Positions 2,719 through 60,645 of a stretch of DNA of 64,000 nucleotides are shown in pieces; within the stretch, counting starts at the first letter, position 1; every line of letters begins with the position of its first letter. The notes under the pieces are model-generated. The model saw only the letters and a program-made list of their open reading frames with translations. It searched no databases and was not told the DNA's origin. The DNA lies in NCBI GenBank assembly GCA_037951105.1, contig JBAMJV010003799.1:62001-126000 (forward strand), given 5' to 3'. This DNA is from Echinarachnius parma. Its lineage: Eukaryota; Echinodermata; Echinoidea; Clypeasteroida; Echinarachniidae. Both the position numbers and the translations under genes were made by a program.

Positions 2719-2891
2719 GGGCCCTGTTACAGAAAGCGATGCAGTCGATTGTAAAGTTGCAATTGATTGCAAGTCCGATTATTTGACTAAATGCACATAA
2801 TATCTGATTGGTTCAAATGCATTTTTTTCCTTCTGAATTGCAATTATTTGCAACTTTACAATCAATTGTAGTTCTTTCTGCTATGGGGCCC
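2719..2891. mobile_element. MITE, GGGCCCTGTT-CAGAAAG family, copy A
   Basis: The left end GGGCCCTGTTACAGAAAG pairs with a right end whose reverse complement begins GGGCCCCATAGCAGAAAG. The subterminal 'gattgtaaagttgcaattga' has a matching inverted copy near the right end. The same design occurs at 23865-24028, 24061-24197 and 62069-62236. A conserved 'tgattggtt' sits in the middle. There is no ORF. The superfamily is undetermined; flanks hint at a short (~3 bp) target duplication in some copies. Confidence 0.8.
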
Positions 2892-3062
2892 ATGACACAA
2901 AGTGCACATTTTCCTCTCCCTAGGGAGTATTCAAGGTGGTCGACTGTTGGCTGGGCACAGTGCTAATGAAGCACATTCCCAATCAATGTTTTAACCTAAA
3001 CTAAACACTGATTTGTCTGCACTTTTTGGCAGCTGGTTTAGTGAATGCAAAAAATAATTCAG
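2892..3062. other. Intergenic, no feature seen
   Basis: Unremarkable AT-rich sequence between a MITE and an AT-rich tandem array. No open frame or RNA-like structure is evident. Confidence 0.6.
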
Positions 3063-3352
3063 TCAAATTTAAAATTTCAAAAAAAAAATGTACAAATTGA
3101 AATTTCAAATTTCAAAAAATAATTGTACAAATTTATATTTAAAATTTCAAAAAATAATAATGTACAAATTGAAATTAAAAAAAAAAAAAAATTGTACAAA
3201 TTGAAATTTAAAATTTCAAAAAATAATTGTACAAATTGAAATTTAAAATTGCCAAAAATAATTGTACAAATTGAAATTTCAAATTTCAAAAAATAATTGT
3301 ACAAATTTAAATTTCAAATTTCAAAAAATAATTGTACAAATTGAAATTTAAC
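3063..3352. repeat. AT-rich tandem array, unit ~36-40 bp
   Basis: Roughly eight imperfect units combine 'aaaaataattgtacaaatt' with 'gaaatttaaaatttcaa'. Units contain short palindromes (aaattt, ttgtacaa). A poly-A expansion interrupts the array around 3177-3191. Open frames over it only reflect the repeat. Confidence 0.9.
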
Positions 3353-4490
3353 TCTGTACATGCTGTACAATTGTCATTGTGCTATGTAACACATATGTGC
3401 AGAGAGTTAAATGTCATTTAAACTCAGAAGTCTTGACTGCATCATTTGCATTTTCTAAGTGATGAGACTAACATATTAATACCCCTTTTTATCGTTGGGA
3501 TATTGAGAAACATATAAAATCGTGACCTTGTACCTTGTAACAATGAAATGTCATATAATGATAAAAATGATGTTGATTGTGACTTTAAAAAGAACCCTGA
3601 AATAACTGTGCATACTCCGACTATATGTATGTATTTTTGTGTTAAAGTGATCCATTAAACTTTATATTTTGTTCCCAAAAATAATATTTGGGACAGAAAT
3701 CATATACCAGTTTCATTGTAAGATTCTTGAGAATGATATGTGAGATTTTCATAGAAAAGGAATAATGTTTACCTAGTGAAAACAGAGAAAATCAATGGCT
3801 GATTTTATCCCGATCGTTCGTGTGACGTATCCGAATTTGGATACTATGGACGATTGAGTTACGGTCGAAAGCGTCCATAGACGCTTTTAAATTGAATCTT
3901 AAATATCTCCATAATTAGGGGGACATTTGAAAAATCTAAACCTATTTAATTCTTCTGTTACCATAAGCCAAACAACAAGGTACATATATTTTGCACGCCT
4001 AAAGGTGCACATGTGCACCCCTTAACAGGGATGTACATGAGCACCCTTGAAAAGCTGCATATGAACACCCCAAGAGTGCCCATGTCTACCTTATAGGGTG
4101 CACGATCTTGTCCCATATTTTGCACGCCTAAAGCTCCAAGTGATTTTGGTTGAATTTACCCTGTTCTTTTTCTTCTTCGGGTTAATCTACCTCCTTCAAT
4201 CCTGACGATTCTTGCAGATACTGTGTGTGTGTGCATACACAGGGTGCGCAGGTGCTTATTTACAAGATGCAAGTCAAAGTCTAGTCCGGTAGTTAGTTGA
4301 TTCCTTCCGTCAGGTTGCGCAGAGCTGGCCTTTACAGATGGCGCCAGGACAACCTCTAAGGGAAGGGAACTCCACTGACGAACTGTTGAACAGGTTTTAA
4401 AAACAAAAATGATATCAAGCGCTTGCACCTGTAAAATTAATTAATTTGATACCAGTGATTGAAAAAAGGATATTTCTTTAGACAAGATAA
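3353..4490. other. Intergenic; short direct repeat at 3981-4137
   Basis: Mostly unremarkable. The phrase 'atattttgcacgcctaaag' appears twice about 130 bases apart (around 3988 and 4113). Between them are 'tgcacatgtgcacc'-like words and repeated 'gcacccc' motifs. No gene is supported. Confidence 0.5.
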
Positions 4491-4495
4491 CTCAG

Positions 4496-5060
4496 ATTTT
4501 ACTTCATGTCGAGTCAAAATTTCTGTCCTAAGTATGCACCAGATTGCATAATTTCAAGTAAAACATTGAAAAAAAAACCTTACCGTGCACGGACGGACAC
4601 CCCCCTACCGTCACACCATCCCCCCTCTCGGTCGCTTCGCTCCCTCGGGAATCAGTTTTGTCTACGACTGGAATACTTTGTTCATGTTGTTGTATCATAC
4701 ATAATGTGGCTTTTGATGCACTATTTGAACTGTATATGTCACTTTGCGATTATTATTTTGGGGGTGCATATTTGTTTTTATTCTTTATGAAACAAATAAA
4801 ACCTCTTTTTCCGGTCGGTAGAATCATGAAGCACTTACCCACATTATAGTACATGTTGTCAAGTCAGAATTTCCTTCCTAGGTATGTCCCAGATTGCACA
4901 GTTTCAGGTCCAAAAATGCAAAAGATCCCTACCATGGCAGGGGAGACACACCCTCCTCCCGCTCAGTCGCTACGCTCCTCCGGGCTTGGTCACTTCGATC
5001 CCTCGCAATATCCGACTGTGATGCGGATTTGGTTTTGCCCCCCAAAAGTTTTTGCTCATT
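4496..5060. repeat. Two diverged copies of a ~200-bp repeat
   Basis: Around 4506-4670 and 4855-5050 the same order of words recurs: 'gtcaaaatttctgtccta', 'accagattgca', 'tttca.gt..aaaa', then a GC-richer part with 'tcggtcgcttcgctccctcg' versus 'tcagtcgctacgctcctccg'. Short peptides read through both copies but differ by frameshifts, so they are treated as decayed repeat, not genes. Confidence 0.6.
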
Positions 5061-5426
5061 ATGCCACTGGTTGGGAATAGCCCTATATAAGTTACCTGTA
5101 TTATTATTATGACAAGGTTTCCTGGTATTTTGTTTTAAATGTTTAAAAAAATGGCTTTATCAGTTTTATATCATTAGAAATGTTCATATTGGTATGGATA
5201 ATTCTTTTTTTAAATTGACAGTGCAATCAATTGAAATGTTAATAAGTCACCTTGATCATTGTGAGTTAAAATAATTAATTTGATTGTTTATATTATATTA
5301 TATTAATTTATGTGCGTTTTGTGTGTATTCTCCATTTTTCATAGACCAGAGTATGTGTTTATAATAAAGTGTGTATTATTTGGAATTGCAGTGATTTTGT
5401 TATTAAACTGTTATATTTCAGATGTC

Positions 5427-6618: not shown

Positions 6619-7066
6619 ACAGCTCGTTATTCCGAAGGTTCGTTATTCTGAAGGTTCGTTTTTTTCCCGAAAATTAAATCGGGTTTGATATTCCGAAGGT
6701 TCGTTAATCCGAAAATGAAATGGGGTTCGTTAATCAAAAAATTAAATGAGGTTCGTTAATCCGAAAATGAAATGAGGTTTCGTTTATCCGAAAATGAAAT
6801 GAGATTCGTTAATCCGAAAGGTTCAATACGAACCCCATATTATTTTCGGATTAACGAACCCTATTGCATTTTTTGACTAACGAACCTCATGTCATTTTCG
6901 GATTAACGAACCCTATTTTATTTTCGGATAAACGAACCTTCGGAACAACGAACCTTCGGATTAATGCAACAAATGTTTGGATTAACGAACCCTATTTCAT
7001 TTTTAGATTAACGAACCCTCAGGTATACGAAATGTGTGTGTTTTTCGGAATAACGAACCGCAACTT
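6619..7066. mobile_element. Foldback element with arms built of ~26-bp tandem repeats
   Basis: The left arm (about 6620-6822) repeats GGTTCGTTAATCCGAAAAT-type units in one orientation. The right arm (about 6830-7065) holds the same units reverse-complemented (ATTTTCGGATTAACGAACC). The outermost ends also match ('cgttattccgaa' left, 'ttcggaataacg' right). There is almost no spacer, so the whole block can fold into one long hairpin. Foldback transposons with tandemly repeated arms are known in sea urchins (TU elements). No transposase frame is present. Confidence 0.85.
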
Positions 7067-25957: not shown

Positions 25958-26290
25958 GGTAAACAGACAGACAAACAGACAGACAAACAGACAGGCATAC
26001 ATACAGACAAACACATAAATATAATGGATGGATGGATGGATGGATGGATGGATGGATGGATGGATGGATGGATGGATGGATGGATGGATGGATGGATGGA
26101 TGGATGGATGGATGGATGGATGGATGGATGGATGGATGGATGGATGGATGGATGGATGGATGGATGGATGGATGGATGGATGGATGGATGGATGGATGGA
26201 TGGATGGATGGATGGATGGATGGATGGATGGATGGATGGATGGATGGATGGATGGATGGATGGATGGATGGATGGATGAGGCTTAGATGG
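25958..26290. repeat. Compound microsatellite: (ACAG)n then (GGAT)n
   Basis: A short degenerate ACAG/ACAA tract (25966-26011) is followed by about 64 almost perfect GGAT units (26024-26278). Because the 4-bp unit lacks stops in either strand, every frame is open; the resulting MDGW and HPSI proteins are artefacts. Confidence 0.98.
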
Positions 26291-26479
26291 ATGGATATAG
26301 ATGTACACATAGCCACATTATGATATTATTGACACATACTGTACATCCAGCCAAAAATAAGCCCTTATATTCAAACTACCTGTAAAGTACGTCCACAATG
26401 AAATATATATCCTGGTATCTGTGTAGGTAATATACATGTATGTGTACCAGTAAGATAAAGATTATTGCATATTATGTAA

Positions 26480-28393
26480 GGGCAGGTCCAAGCTATTGTC
26501 CCCTCTGGGGGTCAAATTTCATCTTTATATATATATAACAAACTATACATCATTTTAAAGCTGAAACTATGAATTTTATGAATCTGATAAAAGAATTTTT
26601 TTTTTATCAAAATACGAAGAATGCCAAGGTCACGAACTTCGATTTGTATTGATTAGCGTGACGTACGGGACATTACATTTTTATTTTTGTATCCCATTTG
26701 AATTATCTTTTTTAAATTAAATATCTTGGGACATGTAGACCATCATGCTAGAAAATAGGAAAAAATATAAAAACTTTCAAAATTAATTAATTATGCAAAT
26801 GAGGTAGGGTCCAAAGTGTGATGTCCCGTACGTCACAATTTTGAACATAATTTGTTTAATTTTAATTATGAAAATAAATTTTTTTTTTAAAGATATTCTA
26901 GGAAGTTCTAATTTAGATGAATACCTACCAAAAAATAGGTTTAACAAAAATTTAAAAAATTCTGTGTTGATTACATAATCAAATTAAGAAATGTGACGTA
27001 CGGGACAATTGTGTGACGTACGGGACAACCCCATATAAAACCACTGCAAGATGTGAAAAAGGAAATGACCAAAAGGAAAAAATATACTGTGTTAGGAAAC
27101 TTGTTGTATACAGGGATATATGAACATTCCAACTGGGTCCCTTCTAGGAATTTACTTGTACTGAATTTGATGTAATTAGTCTTCAAGCCAGACCCTTGGT
27201 ATTATCAACTTTGGTATTTTGCCAGTTGATGTCCCAAACATTGGCAGGATGCTAAATATGTAAATCATAATAGTGTACTTGTTTCTGGAATTAGTCTAGT
27301 TAAATGATATGGTAGTAGATGCACCAGAAGCTGGCTTTTACAACTCATAGATGATGTAAGCAAGAATAGCACATGGTATTAAGCTCTCATGTGTAATTTA
27401 TAATCTCTAATCTGTAATAACAAATTTTAAAAAGACAATATGTTCGGCATTATCTTTTAATGCCATCAAAATTCTGTGATATTACTATTAAGTAATTCAA
27501 ACAAGTTATGAAGAAAAGACTTCATATAATTTGTAATTATCTTTGTTCACAAACACTTAGAGCACAAGAAATTTTCTTTGACAAAATATGTGCCGAGTGT
27601 GCCCCTGTGTTTCAAACAAGTTTAAATAAAAGTTTTCAAGTTCAAGTTCATCTTCTTCATTAATTTTGATTTAAATACATGGATGAAAGACATGAGAAAA
27701 GAAGCATGACTGCACATGATAGATGGGTAAATGAAATAAAAATGGTAATATAGCGTGTATGAATTATATGCATGTATGTTTTTTTCCTTTATTAAAGTAA
27801 TATTTTTATTGATTTACCTCATAAATTAATTCAGAGAATATTAAGTGATGGTCAGAGTATTTAATTGGGTTCTAAAACACTCTAATTGTCACTGATTTAA
27901 GTTACAATTGTTTACATTTAACAAATTTTGACGAAAATTCTTCATTTCAATGCATTTTCCCATAGGGAAAAGTTGTCCCGTACGTCACGTGTCCCGTACG
28001 TCACATACACACATTTATGTTTTGGTATATTACATAACAACGAAAGGTCAGAAAAATATGGTAACACTTGTGATTAATGCTTGATTCCATAATGAATTAA
28101 GATATCAGTACCATAAATCTCATAACTTAATAAATTCAGAGAACTTTTACGATGAACTTATTTTTGAAAAAGTCAGAAATTCTCTAGTCCCGTACGTCAC
28201 GCAGCACATTAATTGCATTACAAATTAATTTAAGAATTGGTCTGAACTGAAACTTTCCACAAATGAACTAGCCTATAATAGCCACAGACTCATACAAAAA
28301 GATAGCCATATAAATAATTTCATCCATTGTTATTTCTTGTTTAAAGTCTCTGAATGTCCCGTACGTCACAATCCAAATAGCTTGGACCTGCCC
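26480..28393. mobile_element. 1.9-kb non-autonomous TIR element with eight GTGACGTACGGGACA boxes
   Basis: The tips are exact 18-bp inverted repeats, GGGCAGGTCCAAGCTATT (26480-26497) and its reverse complement at 28376-28393. GTAA stands directly on both sides, a probable 4-bp target duplication. Inside, the 15-bp box GTGACGTACGGGACA occurs eight times. Forward copies: 26658, 26993 and 27013. Reverse copies: 26822, 27974, 27990, 28186 (first base differs) and 28355. All copies in the right third are reversed and the left ones mostly forward, an arrangement expected of transposase-binding subterminal repeats. There is no ORF of note. The superfamily is not recognised. Confidence 0.8.
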
Positions 28394-30580
28394 GTAATTA
28401 CTTTTCCGGGTTACCTTGTGAAAATTCCAGTACAATTTTAATTACTACATAATTATTTAGCTCAAATTTCCTTGCTTTCATGCTACCTTTTTAATATAAA
28501 GCATTTGGTATAAACAATCATTGTCTTCACTCAATGAAATTAATTTTTGTTTCATTTTAAAAATTATCAAGTAAATCATTAAGCAATGATAGAAATTAAG
28601 ATTTTGGAAAGTAAATCCAAACTTACAAATCAAATTTTGGTGGCATGGATGAAACCAGAATGGGACCCCCCACCTAACGAAAGAAACATTTCTAGTCTAT
28701 TACTTTTGATTGACATGCAAGTCACCCTAGTAAAATTTTGCATAAATTATTTCTTTGGTGACACAAAGTTGATGTTTGGTACCTCTTTTCAATGTTTTTG
28801 TTTTGGTATCTAATGCACAAGTTTTCTGTGCACCTTGGTCCAAGCTAGTCTAGGCAGGTTGATCATAAATTTCTGTAGAAATGGACCAGCAATACTGTGG
28901 CCTTTGAATCAGTAGTTTTTTTCCGTATAAAAACTCATAAAGAAAAGAAGTTCTTTCTTCATTCTTCACAAAGAATAGTGCTTTTGAGAGCCCCCTTTTC
29001 CTAATCACAATACGCTTTGTGTTTTGGTCTATTCTAGATCTCGAAGAAATATCTGAGAAGAAAAAACTGGGCCATTTCTTTTGAAAGTGTCCCTCTTGAA
29101 TTCATTGTATTTTCTTCTATTTGGTATTTTCTATCAAACTAGAAGTAATAAAAGGAACGAAAAGAAAGGGGCATTTCTACCTCTTCTTACAATAGGATAG
29201 ACTTTCTTCATATTGTTGAATACACACATAGACAAATGGTTATATTGTCCTGGGAAAAAAGGGGGATATATTATTGGCTCTTTTAACCCTCTTAAACATT
29301 ATAACCATCTAGGTGTTTTGTTATTATGAATGCAACAATGCAGTGATCTTTTCAGGGTTTGGTATATGAAGTGTTAAACAATGCTTTATCTTGCGTTGTG
29401 AAGACAGAAGTAAGATCCTTTGATCTTGTTTGACTTTCCTTTGTGGGAGGGGATAAATTACTAGGATGAAGTGATGAGCCTTCTTTTCATCTTATTCTTC
29501 ACCTCACAATTCACTTTTATCTTGCGATTGTAGTACTCTTTATCCTGTCTTTGTTCCCATTGTAGTAGTTACAGAAAGTGGTGCATTATTAGCTCTAAGA
29601 CATCAAATCCTATTCCAATTCCTAAGCCTTGCAATCAGTGGTTTTGCCTCATACCCCTTTGTAAGGTATTGTTCATTTATCAAAAGGGATCTTTTCCCTT
29701 TTGAAAATGTCTTCTTTAATGAAAACAACAAATTGGGAAACTTTTGATAACATTAATTGTTCATATTCCATCATACAATCATGCATACAGTCTATCTCAA
29801 TTTTAATTACAATTTCTGGTCAGTTACCTTCATGTATGTTTTCAATCAATTTTAATCAGCACATTGAATAATTGATCACTTATCTTACATGCATGTCTAT
29901 CTATGTACTACTACTATTTTGTCATTATATACGAGCCATGAAAAAAATAGACTGGACTCAGGGCGAATATGTTTTCCCCTGATAAAGGGTGATAAATATA
30001 ATTAACTTTATTTGGCTACTTTAAATGCCAGATTAGACATGCATGTACATACTGAATGGGTGTAGATCAATTTGCAAACATCAACTCGTCAATATATTGT
30101 CACCACTCTGCGACTTCCTATCCCATTCCTCTATCCGAGTATCCGTATCTCATTTTTACAATTAATTCCACTTTCTCGCTCCCATTTTATGATCTGCTCG
30201 GGAATAATGAAGTAATCATCGCATTTGACACCCTCTCAGGCCAGCGGAAGCCCATTACAATTTTTCACAAAAGATACCTTCTCACGTTCTCAAAATGGAT
30301 AGAAAAAGGGAAATGATACAAGATTTGCTTTTGTGATGCGCTATATTGGCATTTCATTCATTTTATTCATTTATGTACGCTGGCCCTAATATAAAATACA
30401 GTTACCGTACGTACTTATACAAATGAATTGAGTGTTAATGGAAGTAACGGGGTGAGGAAAATACAGTTAGCTACTTACGGTGGATTAAGTGCGAATGAGA
30501 GGCATTCATGAATTGATAATGTTGAATTATTTCTGGTTTGCTTGCCTAAATTTCTTTCACAGGATATTGATCCGAAAAGG
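28394..30580. other. AT-rich intron sequence, nothing identified
   Basis: No repeat or exon could be supported. Short open frames (28586-28813, 30056-30316) show no motif and no splice-consistent structure. Confidence 0.5.
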
Positions 30581-59499: not shown

Positions 59500-60645
59500 A
59501 AAGCGGACAAAGAAGTTGATCCGCATTGTCAAGTTATTAGCGACAGATGTCAAGAGCTTTGATATCTCTTCACCTCCCACTTTTCTGAAACCACAAAACT
59601 ATGTTATTAGGTCTTTTGTACGGAAGATCTGATGTTTCCTGTCATATGTTTTAATTATGAATCTTAAAGTTTGGGCGAAAATGCTCCTTTAGCAGTTACG
59701 GAAAAGAACATTCACGTTGCCAAGTCATTTTCAAAAGGTGTCGGATTGTTTACCACCCACTTTTCCTAAAACCATGTAACGTTGGATCTTTTGAAAGAAA
59801 GATCTGATGTTTCCTGTCATATGCTTTAGTTATGAATCTAGAAGTCATGGCAAAAATGCTCCAAGGAAAAAGAACATAAGAATATCTACTTTGCCAAGTC
59901 ATTTTCAAAAGGTGTCAGAGATTTTATTCGCGACCTCCCACTTTTCTGAAACCACAAAACTATGGTATTAGGGTCTTTTGTATGGAAGATCTGATGTTTC
60001 CTAGCTGTCTATGATGTACATGTATGAATCTTGAAATCATGGCAGAAATGCTCCTTTAGCAGTTAGGAAAAAGAACATTCACTTTGCCAAGTCATTTTCT
60101 AAAGGTGTCAGACAGTCGATTCCTCAACACCCACTTTTCTGAAACCACAAAACTATATGGTAATAGGTCTTTTGTATGGAAGATCTGATGTTTCCTGTCA
60201 GTACGCTTTATGAATCTAGAAATCATGGCAAAAATGCTCCATTGGTAAGAAAAAGAACATGTTTATAAGAAGTCATTTTCAAAAGGTGTCAGACAGTCGA
60301 TTCCTCAACACCTACTTTTCTGAAACCACAAAACTATGGTAATAATGTAGGTCTTTTGTATGGAAGATCTGATGTTTCCTGTCAAATGCTTTATGAATCT
60401 AGAAATCATGGCAAAAATGCTCCATTGGTAAGAAGTCATTTTCAAAAGGTGTCAGACAGTTGATTTTTCAACACCCACTTTTCTGAAACCACAAAACTAT
60501 GGTATGGATCTTTTGAAAGGAAGATCCAATGTTTCCTGTCATATATGCTTTGTAAATCTTGAAATCTTGGCATAAATGCTTCTTTGGCAGTTAAAAGAAC
60601 GTGTTTAGAAGAATATCCACATTGCCGAGTCATTTTCATGTGTGG
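59500..60645. repeat. Satellite-like array, ~160-190-bp units
   Basis: Six to seven copies of an ordered unit: 'aagtcattttcaaaaggtgt' (59732, 59913, 60091 variant, 60274, 60435), 'cccacttttctgaaaccac', 'aaaactatggtaataggtc', 'ttttgtatggaagatctgat', 'gtttcctgtcatatgcttta', 'atgaatctagaaatcatggc', 'aaaaatgctcc', 'aaaaagaacat'. Copies are clearly related but diverged, with indels in the spacer. The 72-codon frame at 59414-59632 is part of it. Confidence 0.9.

Follow-up and report, generated by a model that had tools for sequence, protein, structure and literature searches.

Features of the locus

The locus lies in the window, by which is meant the whole 64,000-nucleotide stretch of Echinarachnius parma DNA that was analysed, and it is occupied by an element of 1.9 kb at 26480-28393. 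As the first-pass annotation had it, the element is bounded by a perfect 18-bp pair of terminal inverted repeats (TIRs) at 26480-26497 and 28376-28393, with 18 of 18 bases identical as inverted repeats, and a GTAA duplication is present on both flanks (26476-26479 and 28394-28397). A scan of the window for inverted pairs, seeded with exact, non-simple 12-mers and requiring arms separated by 60-8,000 bp and a flanking duplication of at least 3 bp or TA, returned two pairs; this element's is the longer, the arms of the other being 13 bp long. The element has a G+C content of 30%, has no stop-to-stop frame longer than 76 aa and contains no gene that was recognised. An Rfam search of the window gave no match.

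A 15-bp box recurs within the element. The annotation counted eight boxes, and all eight sites are present; seven are exact, but the box at 28186-28200 differs in its last base. The orientations are as described, with +,-,+,+ on the left and -,-,-,- on the right, and so are the two close pairs, whose starts lie 20 bp (26993/27013) and 16 bp (27974/27990) apart. The boxes do form two clusters, although "left quarter" and "right fifth" are too narrow for them, given that the first extends to 28.6% of the element's length and the second begins at 78.1%. At up to two mismatches the window holds eight box matches versus 0.02 expected from dinucleotide shuffles, and eight were reached in none of 100 such shuffles of the window. 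The features are as follows:

26476..26479, no strand: left target site duplication GTAA, with the same 4 bp on the right side
26480..26497, plus strand: left TIR GGGCAGGTCCAAGCTATT, with no variation in its first 16 bases among 13 left ends
26497..26503, plus strand: invariant TGTCCCC run (13 left ends), on the inner side of the left TIR and sharing its last base
26658..26672, plus strand: box 1, GTGACGTACGGGACA
26779..26796, no strand: A/T-rich conserved stretch AAAATTAATTAATTATGC, of which 17 of 18 columns belong to invariant runs among 13 left ends
26822..26836, minus strand: box 2
26902..26912, no strand: further conserved 11-mer GAAGTTCTAAT, among the invariant runs of the left-end alignment
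26993..27007, plus strand: box 3
27013..27027, plus strand: box 4, start 20 bp after that of box 3
27040..27960, no strand: central filler, no long ORF
27974..27988, minus strand: box 5
27990..28004, minus strand: box 6, start 16 bp after that of box 5
28186..28200, minus strand: box 7, last base varies, 1 mismatch
28355..28369, minus strand: box 8, 39 bp from the right end in 31 of 31 two-ended copies
28376..28393, minus strand: right TIR AATAGCTTGGACCTGCCC
28394..28397, no strand: right target site duplication GTAA

The first six bases of the TGTCCCC run are the start of the reversed box, and the run may possibly be a half-box.

Elsewhere in the window, an exon-sized open frame at 53291-54103 matches glypican (PF01153, E 4.5e-54), with glypican-3 and -1 as its best solved structures, and this match places the window in or near a glypican gene. 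Repeat arrays are also present. An array of 68 copies of ATGG (26024-26296) ends about 180 bp to the left of the element, two facing arrays of ~26-bp units (TTCGTTAATCCGAAAATGAAATG and its reverse complement) lie at 6624-6961, tandem repeats of a 22-bp unit with inverted halves AGTCCT and AGGACT lie at 1843-2122, and a 181-bp satellite-like unit is present in 4.7 copies at 59576-60434.

Copies and lineages in the genome

The genome assembly searched comprises 14,790 contigs and 1.2 Gb. Genome-wide, exact matches to the box number 1,766 (890+876), versus 6 (2+4) for the pattern read backwards. The left-end pattern at up to two mismatches was found at 293 places and the right-end pattern at up to three mismatches at 281, with none for either reversed control. 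Searches with the TIR and the box therefore recover further dispersed copies bounded by the same TIRs, in keeping with the family that the first reading had suspected. For the analyses below, 100 of the 293 left ends and 100 of the 281 right ends were listed, and about 70% of the ends of the type called A lie outside the matches listed.

The window copy belongs to a lineage designated W, and a second lineage, A, is more abundant. The W right end is found at 0-1 mismatch at 29 places, and in a DNA search, the counts of which are lower bounds, the W centre was found on those 29 contigs only; blastn gave no match between the W and A centres. Ten of the 23 W copies with both ends listed are 1,903-1,938 bp long. 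In six other W copies the aligned blocks are mostly 90-99% identical to the window copy, with lower-identity blocks in L053 (73.5%) and L057 (89.9%). Six copies of lineage A, ~1.71-1.74 kb in length, are 97.8-98.9% identical, which points to probable recent transposase activity; a relative, L047, stands at 83-84% identity. In a global alignment, W and A are 57% identical.

The 100 box places that were listed fall in 20 loci. Alignment assigns 19 of these to A or W; in the twentieth, L044, a single box is enclosed by degenerate TIRs ~0.2 kb apart. Outlier boxes preceded by A/G occur at nine places, among which L065, L066, L067, L070, L072 and L073 align with A, and outlier boxes followed by C/G occur at 35 places, many on W contigs. 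Boxes without ends, which might have told against the element as first described, were seen in a few places only: truncated copies, a lone box near a frame read as a receptor (L068) and the boxes of L069 and L071. The latter are probably relics beside lectin-like exons. Each is a single box with a degenerate TIR ~180 bp away (L069 1501-1705 and L071 about 1310-1517), in paralogous places, and they probably represent an old copy duplicated together with a lectin-like gene, which is lectin-like by reading.

The box pair and TIR were found in no viral contig. In prokaryote genomes the box pair gave one place, in Streptomyces, with three imperfect tandem units, which was judged unrelated. A literature search with the box, TIR and core strings returned no relevant paper, its one hit concerning a grass potassium channel, and searches on the termini of transposon superfamilies led no further.

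Target duplications and empty sites

Identical 4-bp flanks are found in 28 of the 31 two-ended copies, the three without matching flanks being L033, L051 and L055. The count is drawn from 37 sequences examined, less L037, L038, L039, L043, L044 and L045, which do not have two ends, and did not take in L065, L067-L071, L073 and L076. The duplicated bases of the 28 copies comprise 98 A/T and 14 G/C, and the sequences differ between copies. TTAA accounts for only four of the 28 duplications, so there is no fixed target.

Empty sites were compared seven times for six insertions (L040, L041, L046, L047, L048 and L054), all of them situated in repeats that also exist in uninterrupted form. Each empty copy carries the 4-bp site once and lacks the element, the sites being paralogous rather than allelic. 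In the comparison of L054 with L037 the site differs by one base and the repeats have diverged; in that of L047 with L064 the whole junction matches except for a 2-base gap at the far end. Further candidate junction-spanning matches occur for L048, L049, L050 and others. The 4-bp target duplication proposed from the window alone is thus borne out by copies with the same TIRs and by paralogous empty sites. The empty-site alignment suggested at the same time shows a single 4-bp copy for all six insertions but found no empty site for the window copy.

A duplication of constant length, present as a single copy at empty sites, is a feature of TIR transposons and is found here. The constant TIRs, constant 4-bp stagger and precise empty sites together indicate cut-and-paste insertion. 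The copies read have a history of mobility, share the TIR and the 4-bp duplication, and contain no recognisable gene; the family is a dispersed, non-autonomous TIR (class II) DNA transposon. It is a candidate new family of a class, the non-autonomous TIR transposons, that is already known.

Conservation of the boxes and their spacing

Given that ends are related within each lineage, the comparison of W with A carries the weight. Between the window copy and L049, a copy of lineage A, 118 of 120 box bases and 35 of 36 TIR bases are identical, as are 454 of 819 other outer bases and 370 of 739 bases of the centre, where all such identity and gap figures come from single representatives (the window copy and L049, with L047 as a second in part). 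If box bases had changed like their neighbors, the chance of at least 118 identities in 120 would be ~1e-27, with bases treated as independent.

All eight boxes keep their order, orientation and near-identical spacing between W and A. In both lineages the four left boxes begin some 179, 343, 513 and 533 bp in from the left edge, and the four right boxes some 420, 404, 208 and 39 bp in from the right edge. Single copies deviate by up to about 10 bp, except for 26 bp at one right box of L048, and copies carrying insertions have box positions that are shifted further. At up to two mismatches, seven boxes are found in four of the 31 copies and five in L036, which also has boxes at 179 and 39. W and A have in common an asymmetry of the ends, such that a box lies 39 bp from the right edge and none lies before about 170 on the left. 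When the last 420 bp of W and A are aligned without gaps, 164 of 342 non-box bases agree, versus a mean of 29% and a maximum of 35% when the alignment is shifted. A gapped alignment of W and A places five gap events (8 bp) in both ends together and 14 in the centre, where they total 276 bp.

Every invariant run of at least 14 bp in the alignments of 13 left and 15 right ends is TIR or box. Runs of at least 7 but below 14 bp are parts of boxes 2, 3 and 8, the TGTCCCC run, GAAGTTCTAAT (26902-26912) and the A/T-rich stretch (26779-26796). Among the 15 right ends, a set that includes old copies, no invariant run of at least 7 bases falls in box 5 or box 7. Among 284 boxes from 41 loci, which were picked at up to three mismatches from related copies, each of positions 1-14 has the same base in at least 97% of cases, and at position 15 there are 247 A, 34 C and 3 T.

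This footprint argues strongly that the boxes and their spacing have been held under selection, and the behavior of the boxes as cis-acting sites, as the annotation had proposed from their clustering, is supported by the comparison of W with A. With about half of the remaining outer bases in common, the two lineages serve as a mutagenesis experiment performed by nature, in which the important bases of a transposon end stand out. It is this footprint, rather than the class of transposon, that makes the family of interest.

Search for a coding partner

Full-length copies with a transposase had been proposed as a target of the genome search, and none was recovered among the copies read. In these copies no transposase was recognised in ORF lists or by reading, most A copies lying outside this reading, and fourteen insert ORFs and one LINE-type frame compared with Pfam gave no transposase. 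The absence of a transposase from the copies read suggests that the elements probably moved in trans. Long copies, of up to 11.2 kb, were considered as autonomous elements and rejected, given that their extra DNA is mostly shared between copies or LINE-type. Stretches unlike A or W are present in L032, L033, L034, L036, L041, L046, L052, L053, L058-L061, L063, L064 and the copy on C1320 (L074+L075). Inserts are shared by L032/L058, L034/L041, L060/L061, L053/L059 and C1320/L036/L033; the insert of L033 has a LINE-type frame (PHD, endonuclease, RT), and that of C1320 an endonuclease frame. The remaining extra DNA is taken, by inference, to be nested insertions. A 390-aa repeat frame in L064 exceeds, in its score, the threshold of a herpesvirus glycoprotein family; no single stretch does so, and we take the match as a tandem-repeat artefact. 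The C1320 copy also has, on its minus strand, a 339-aa insert ORF, partly repeated in a second frame of 267 aa; the 339-aa ORF has no Pfam family over cut-off.

Three patterns, a non-exhaustive set, were used to look for the same TIR with other inner sequence, and returned four, seven and one places. With so few places, most exact TIRs seem to be W- or A-type. Known transposase families are present in the genome. PF02992 (tnp2, CACTA-type) has 17 matches, several with long open frames, and PF10551 (MULE) has 24, and none of either lies within 20 kb of any listed end (100 of 293 left, 100 of 281 right), the distances having been compared by eye and partly rechecked. One tnp2 locus (L078) has no box at up to four mismatches and no TIR at up to five, and another (L077) has three box-like sites at four mismatches and one TIR-like site at five, none closer. 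The autonomous partner may be rare, in unassembled sequence, among the unlisted copies, or lost.

The L078 locus itself (1417-2514 and 2875-5199) has a 775-aa tnp2 open frame preceded by about twenty 42-bp repeats. Loci of this type, with the same score and frame length, are found on C1014, C5053, C5093, C6328, C7900 and C10366, and L078 is perhaps a recently active CACTA element.

Interpretation and alternatives

The family is, in our judgment, very probably a non-autonomous cut-and-paste TIR family that was moved in trans, with the boxes as predicted sites for a transposon-encoded DNA-binding protein. The elements would encode nothing themselves, and the TIR would be the site of cleavage and joining. 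The eight 15-bp boxes, four per end and in fixed geometry, are predicted to be bound by the transposon-encoded protein, which would be either the transposase or a TnpA-type accessory protein. Several copies of the protein, loaded on both ends, would allow the ends to be paired before cutting, and insertion would proceed by a 4-bp staggered cut. We infer the protein that binds, its encoding by a transposon and the synapsis step; the eight sites in fixed order, orientation and spacing do suggest a large, end-pairing protein-DNA complex.

Two readings would do without a transposon protein on the boxes. The boxes could be sites for host bZIP factors of the CREB/ATF type (TGACGTAC), which would give the element promoter or enhancer activity or would have been recruited to regulate host genes. 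The TGACG/TGACGTA within the box is a CREB/ATF-type bZIP motif, and clustered, repeated sites would also suit an enhancer. However, the half-site pointed out by the annotation, which does lie inside the box, explains only part of it, given that 14 positions are constrained (284 boxes, 41 loci) and a bZIP site is 8 bp; because the constrained box is longer, the TGACGTA within it may be a coincidence. The spacing at the right end is kept over 420 bp without net indel, a precision that an enhancer would rarely require. The element holds no recognised gene, and the listed box places align with A or W at 19 of 20 loci. We regard the host-factor reading as improbable. The box also fits the THAP pattern TxxGGGxx, a weak lead. 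A chance or local tandem origin can draw only on the A/T-rich sequence, where short repeats are common. It is rejected by the shuffles and reversed-pattern controls, with the hundreds of dispersed ends and the empty sites also against it, and its probability is negligible.

If a transposon protein does bind the boxes, its superfamily has to be considered. We think it somewhat likely that the family belongs to another known superfamily with 4-bp duplications, such as AcademX, Sola, Chapaev, Ginger or a MULE variant, with an autonomous member that would be scarce, absent from the assembly or altered at its ends by divergence. These groups, including unusual MULEs, are compatible by duplication length alone. 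Sola and Chapaev make 4-bp duplications, and the terminal letters are TGT for Ginger and CACT for Chapaev, so that the termini of the latter two do not fit. The part of PMC10045372 consulted gives duplications of 3-4 bp for AcademX, 4 bp for Ginger1 and 4-10 bp for MuDR/IS256, and the duplication found here has the AcademX length. The near-identity of the six A copies, with its hint of recent transposase activity, also favors a known superfamily, although no linked transposase was seen among the copies read and none of the 24 MULE matches lies near a listed end. A non-autonomous CACTA (EnSpm/CMC) element, with a TnpA-like protein on its subterminal repeats, is an unlikely identity. The layout is alike (excerpt of PMC2613891), the 4-bp duplication falls within the 2-4 bp quoted for CMC elements (excerpt of PMC4482050), and the genome has its 17 tnp2 matches; against this, the TIR starts GGGCAGG at both ends rather than CACTA or CACTG, the two of the 17 tnp2 loci that were compared (L077 and L078) share neither TIR nor box, and no tnp2 match lies near the listed ends.

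It is also rather doubtful, if worth stating, that the superfamily of the transposase is still undescribed, with a paired-end complex that needs a constant-spacing array of eight sites and an array whose DNA specificity was kept as the remaining sequence diverged almost to saturation in two non-autonomous lineages evolving in parallel. The missing transposase, once found, could make this more than a new family of a known kind. For the favored reading, a family moved in trans, the TIR plus box is a sharp probe for that transposase, and the kept geometry of the boxes makes the geometry of the synaptic complex testable.

Comparison with known systems

P elements duplicate 8 bp, and PIF/Harbinger elements have the target TWA. 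Several groups were rejected on their target duplications: hAT and P elements because the duplication here is 4 bp rather than 5-8 bp (hAT) or 8 bp, piggyBac because TTAA is duplicated in only four of 28 copies, and PIF/Harbinger and other members of the PHIS group because the 4-bp duplications here are of many sequences and not of a short, group-specific target. The targets of the PHIS group are given as AT, ANT, CWG and TNA in the part of PMC4482050 consulted, whereas that of PMC10045372, contrary to the exclusion, allows PHIS duplications of up to 4 bp. PiggyBac resembles the element in its 4-bp duplication and differs in its ends, which are CC..GG (excerpt of PMC10045372) where these are GG..CC. 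The hAT elements, such as Buster1, are similar in having short repeated motifs near their ends. Such repeats are used to distinguish between hAT elements and may play a structural or functional part (excerpt of PMC4298943); the hAT duplication is 5-8 bp (excerpt of PMC4482050), and the motif here is 15 bp.

Sola and Chapaev are alike in their 4-bp duplications, and so are AcademX and Ginger (3-4 and 4-5 bp in the excerpts of PMC10045372 and PMC4482050), while the termini of Ginger and Chapaev are unlike those of this element. The closest match in layout is to CACTA elements (En/Spm, Tam1, Tgmt*), which likewise have a short TIR, subterminal motifs in both orientations, unequal ends and non-coding derivatives. 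In the part of PMC2613891 consulted, CACTA elements are described as having a short TIR plus many subterminal repeats of 10-20 bp, direct and inverted, with motifs that vary widely between elements. Repeated subterminal motifs are found here as well; a CACTA or CACTG terminus is not, in that this TIR begins GGGCAGGTCC, and the duplication is 4 bp rather than the 3 bp of the element in that excerpt. As a further difference from the CACTA elements described there, the motifs here are eight near-identical boxes, kept in fixed register across two very diverged lineages.
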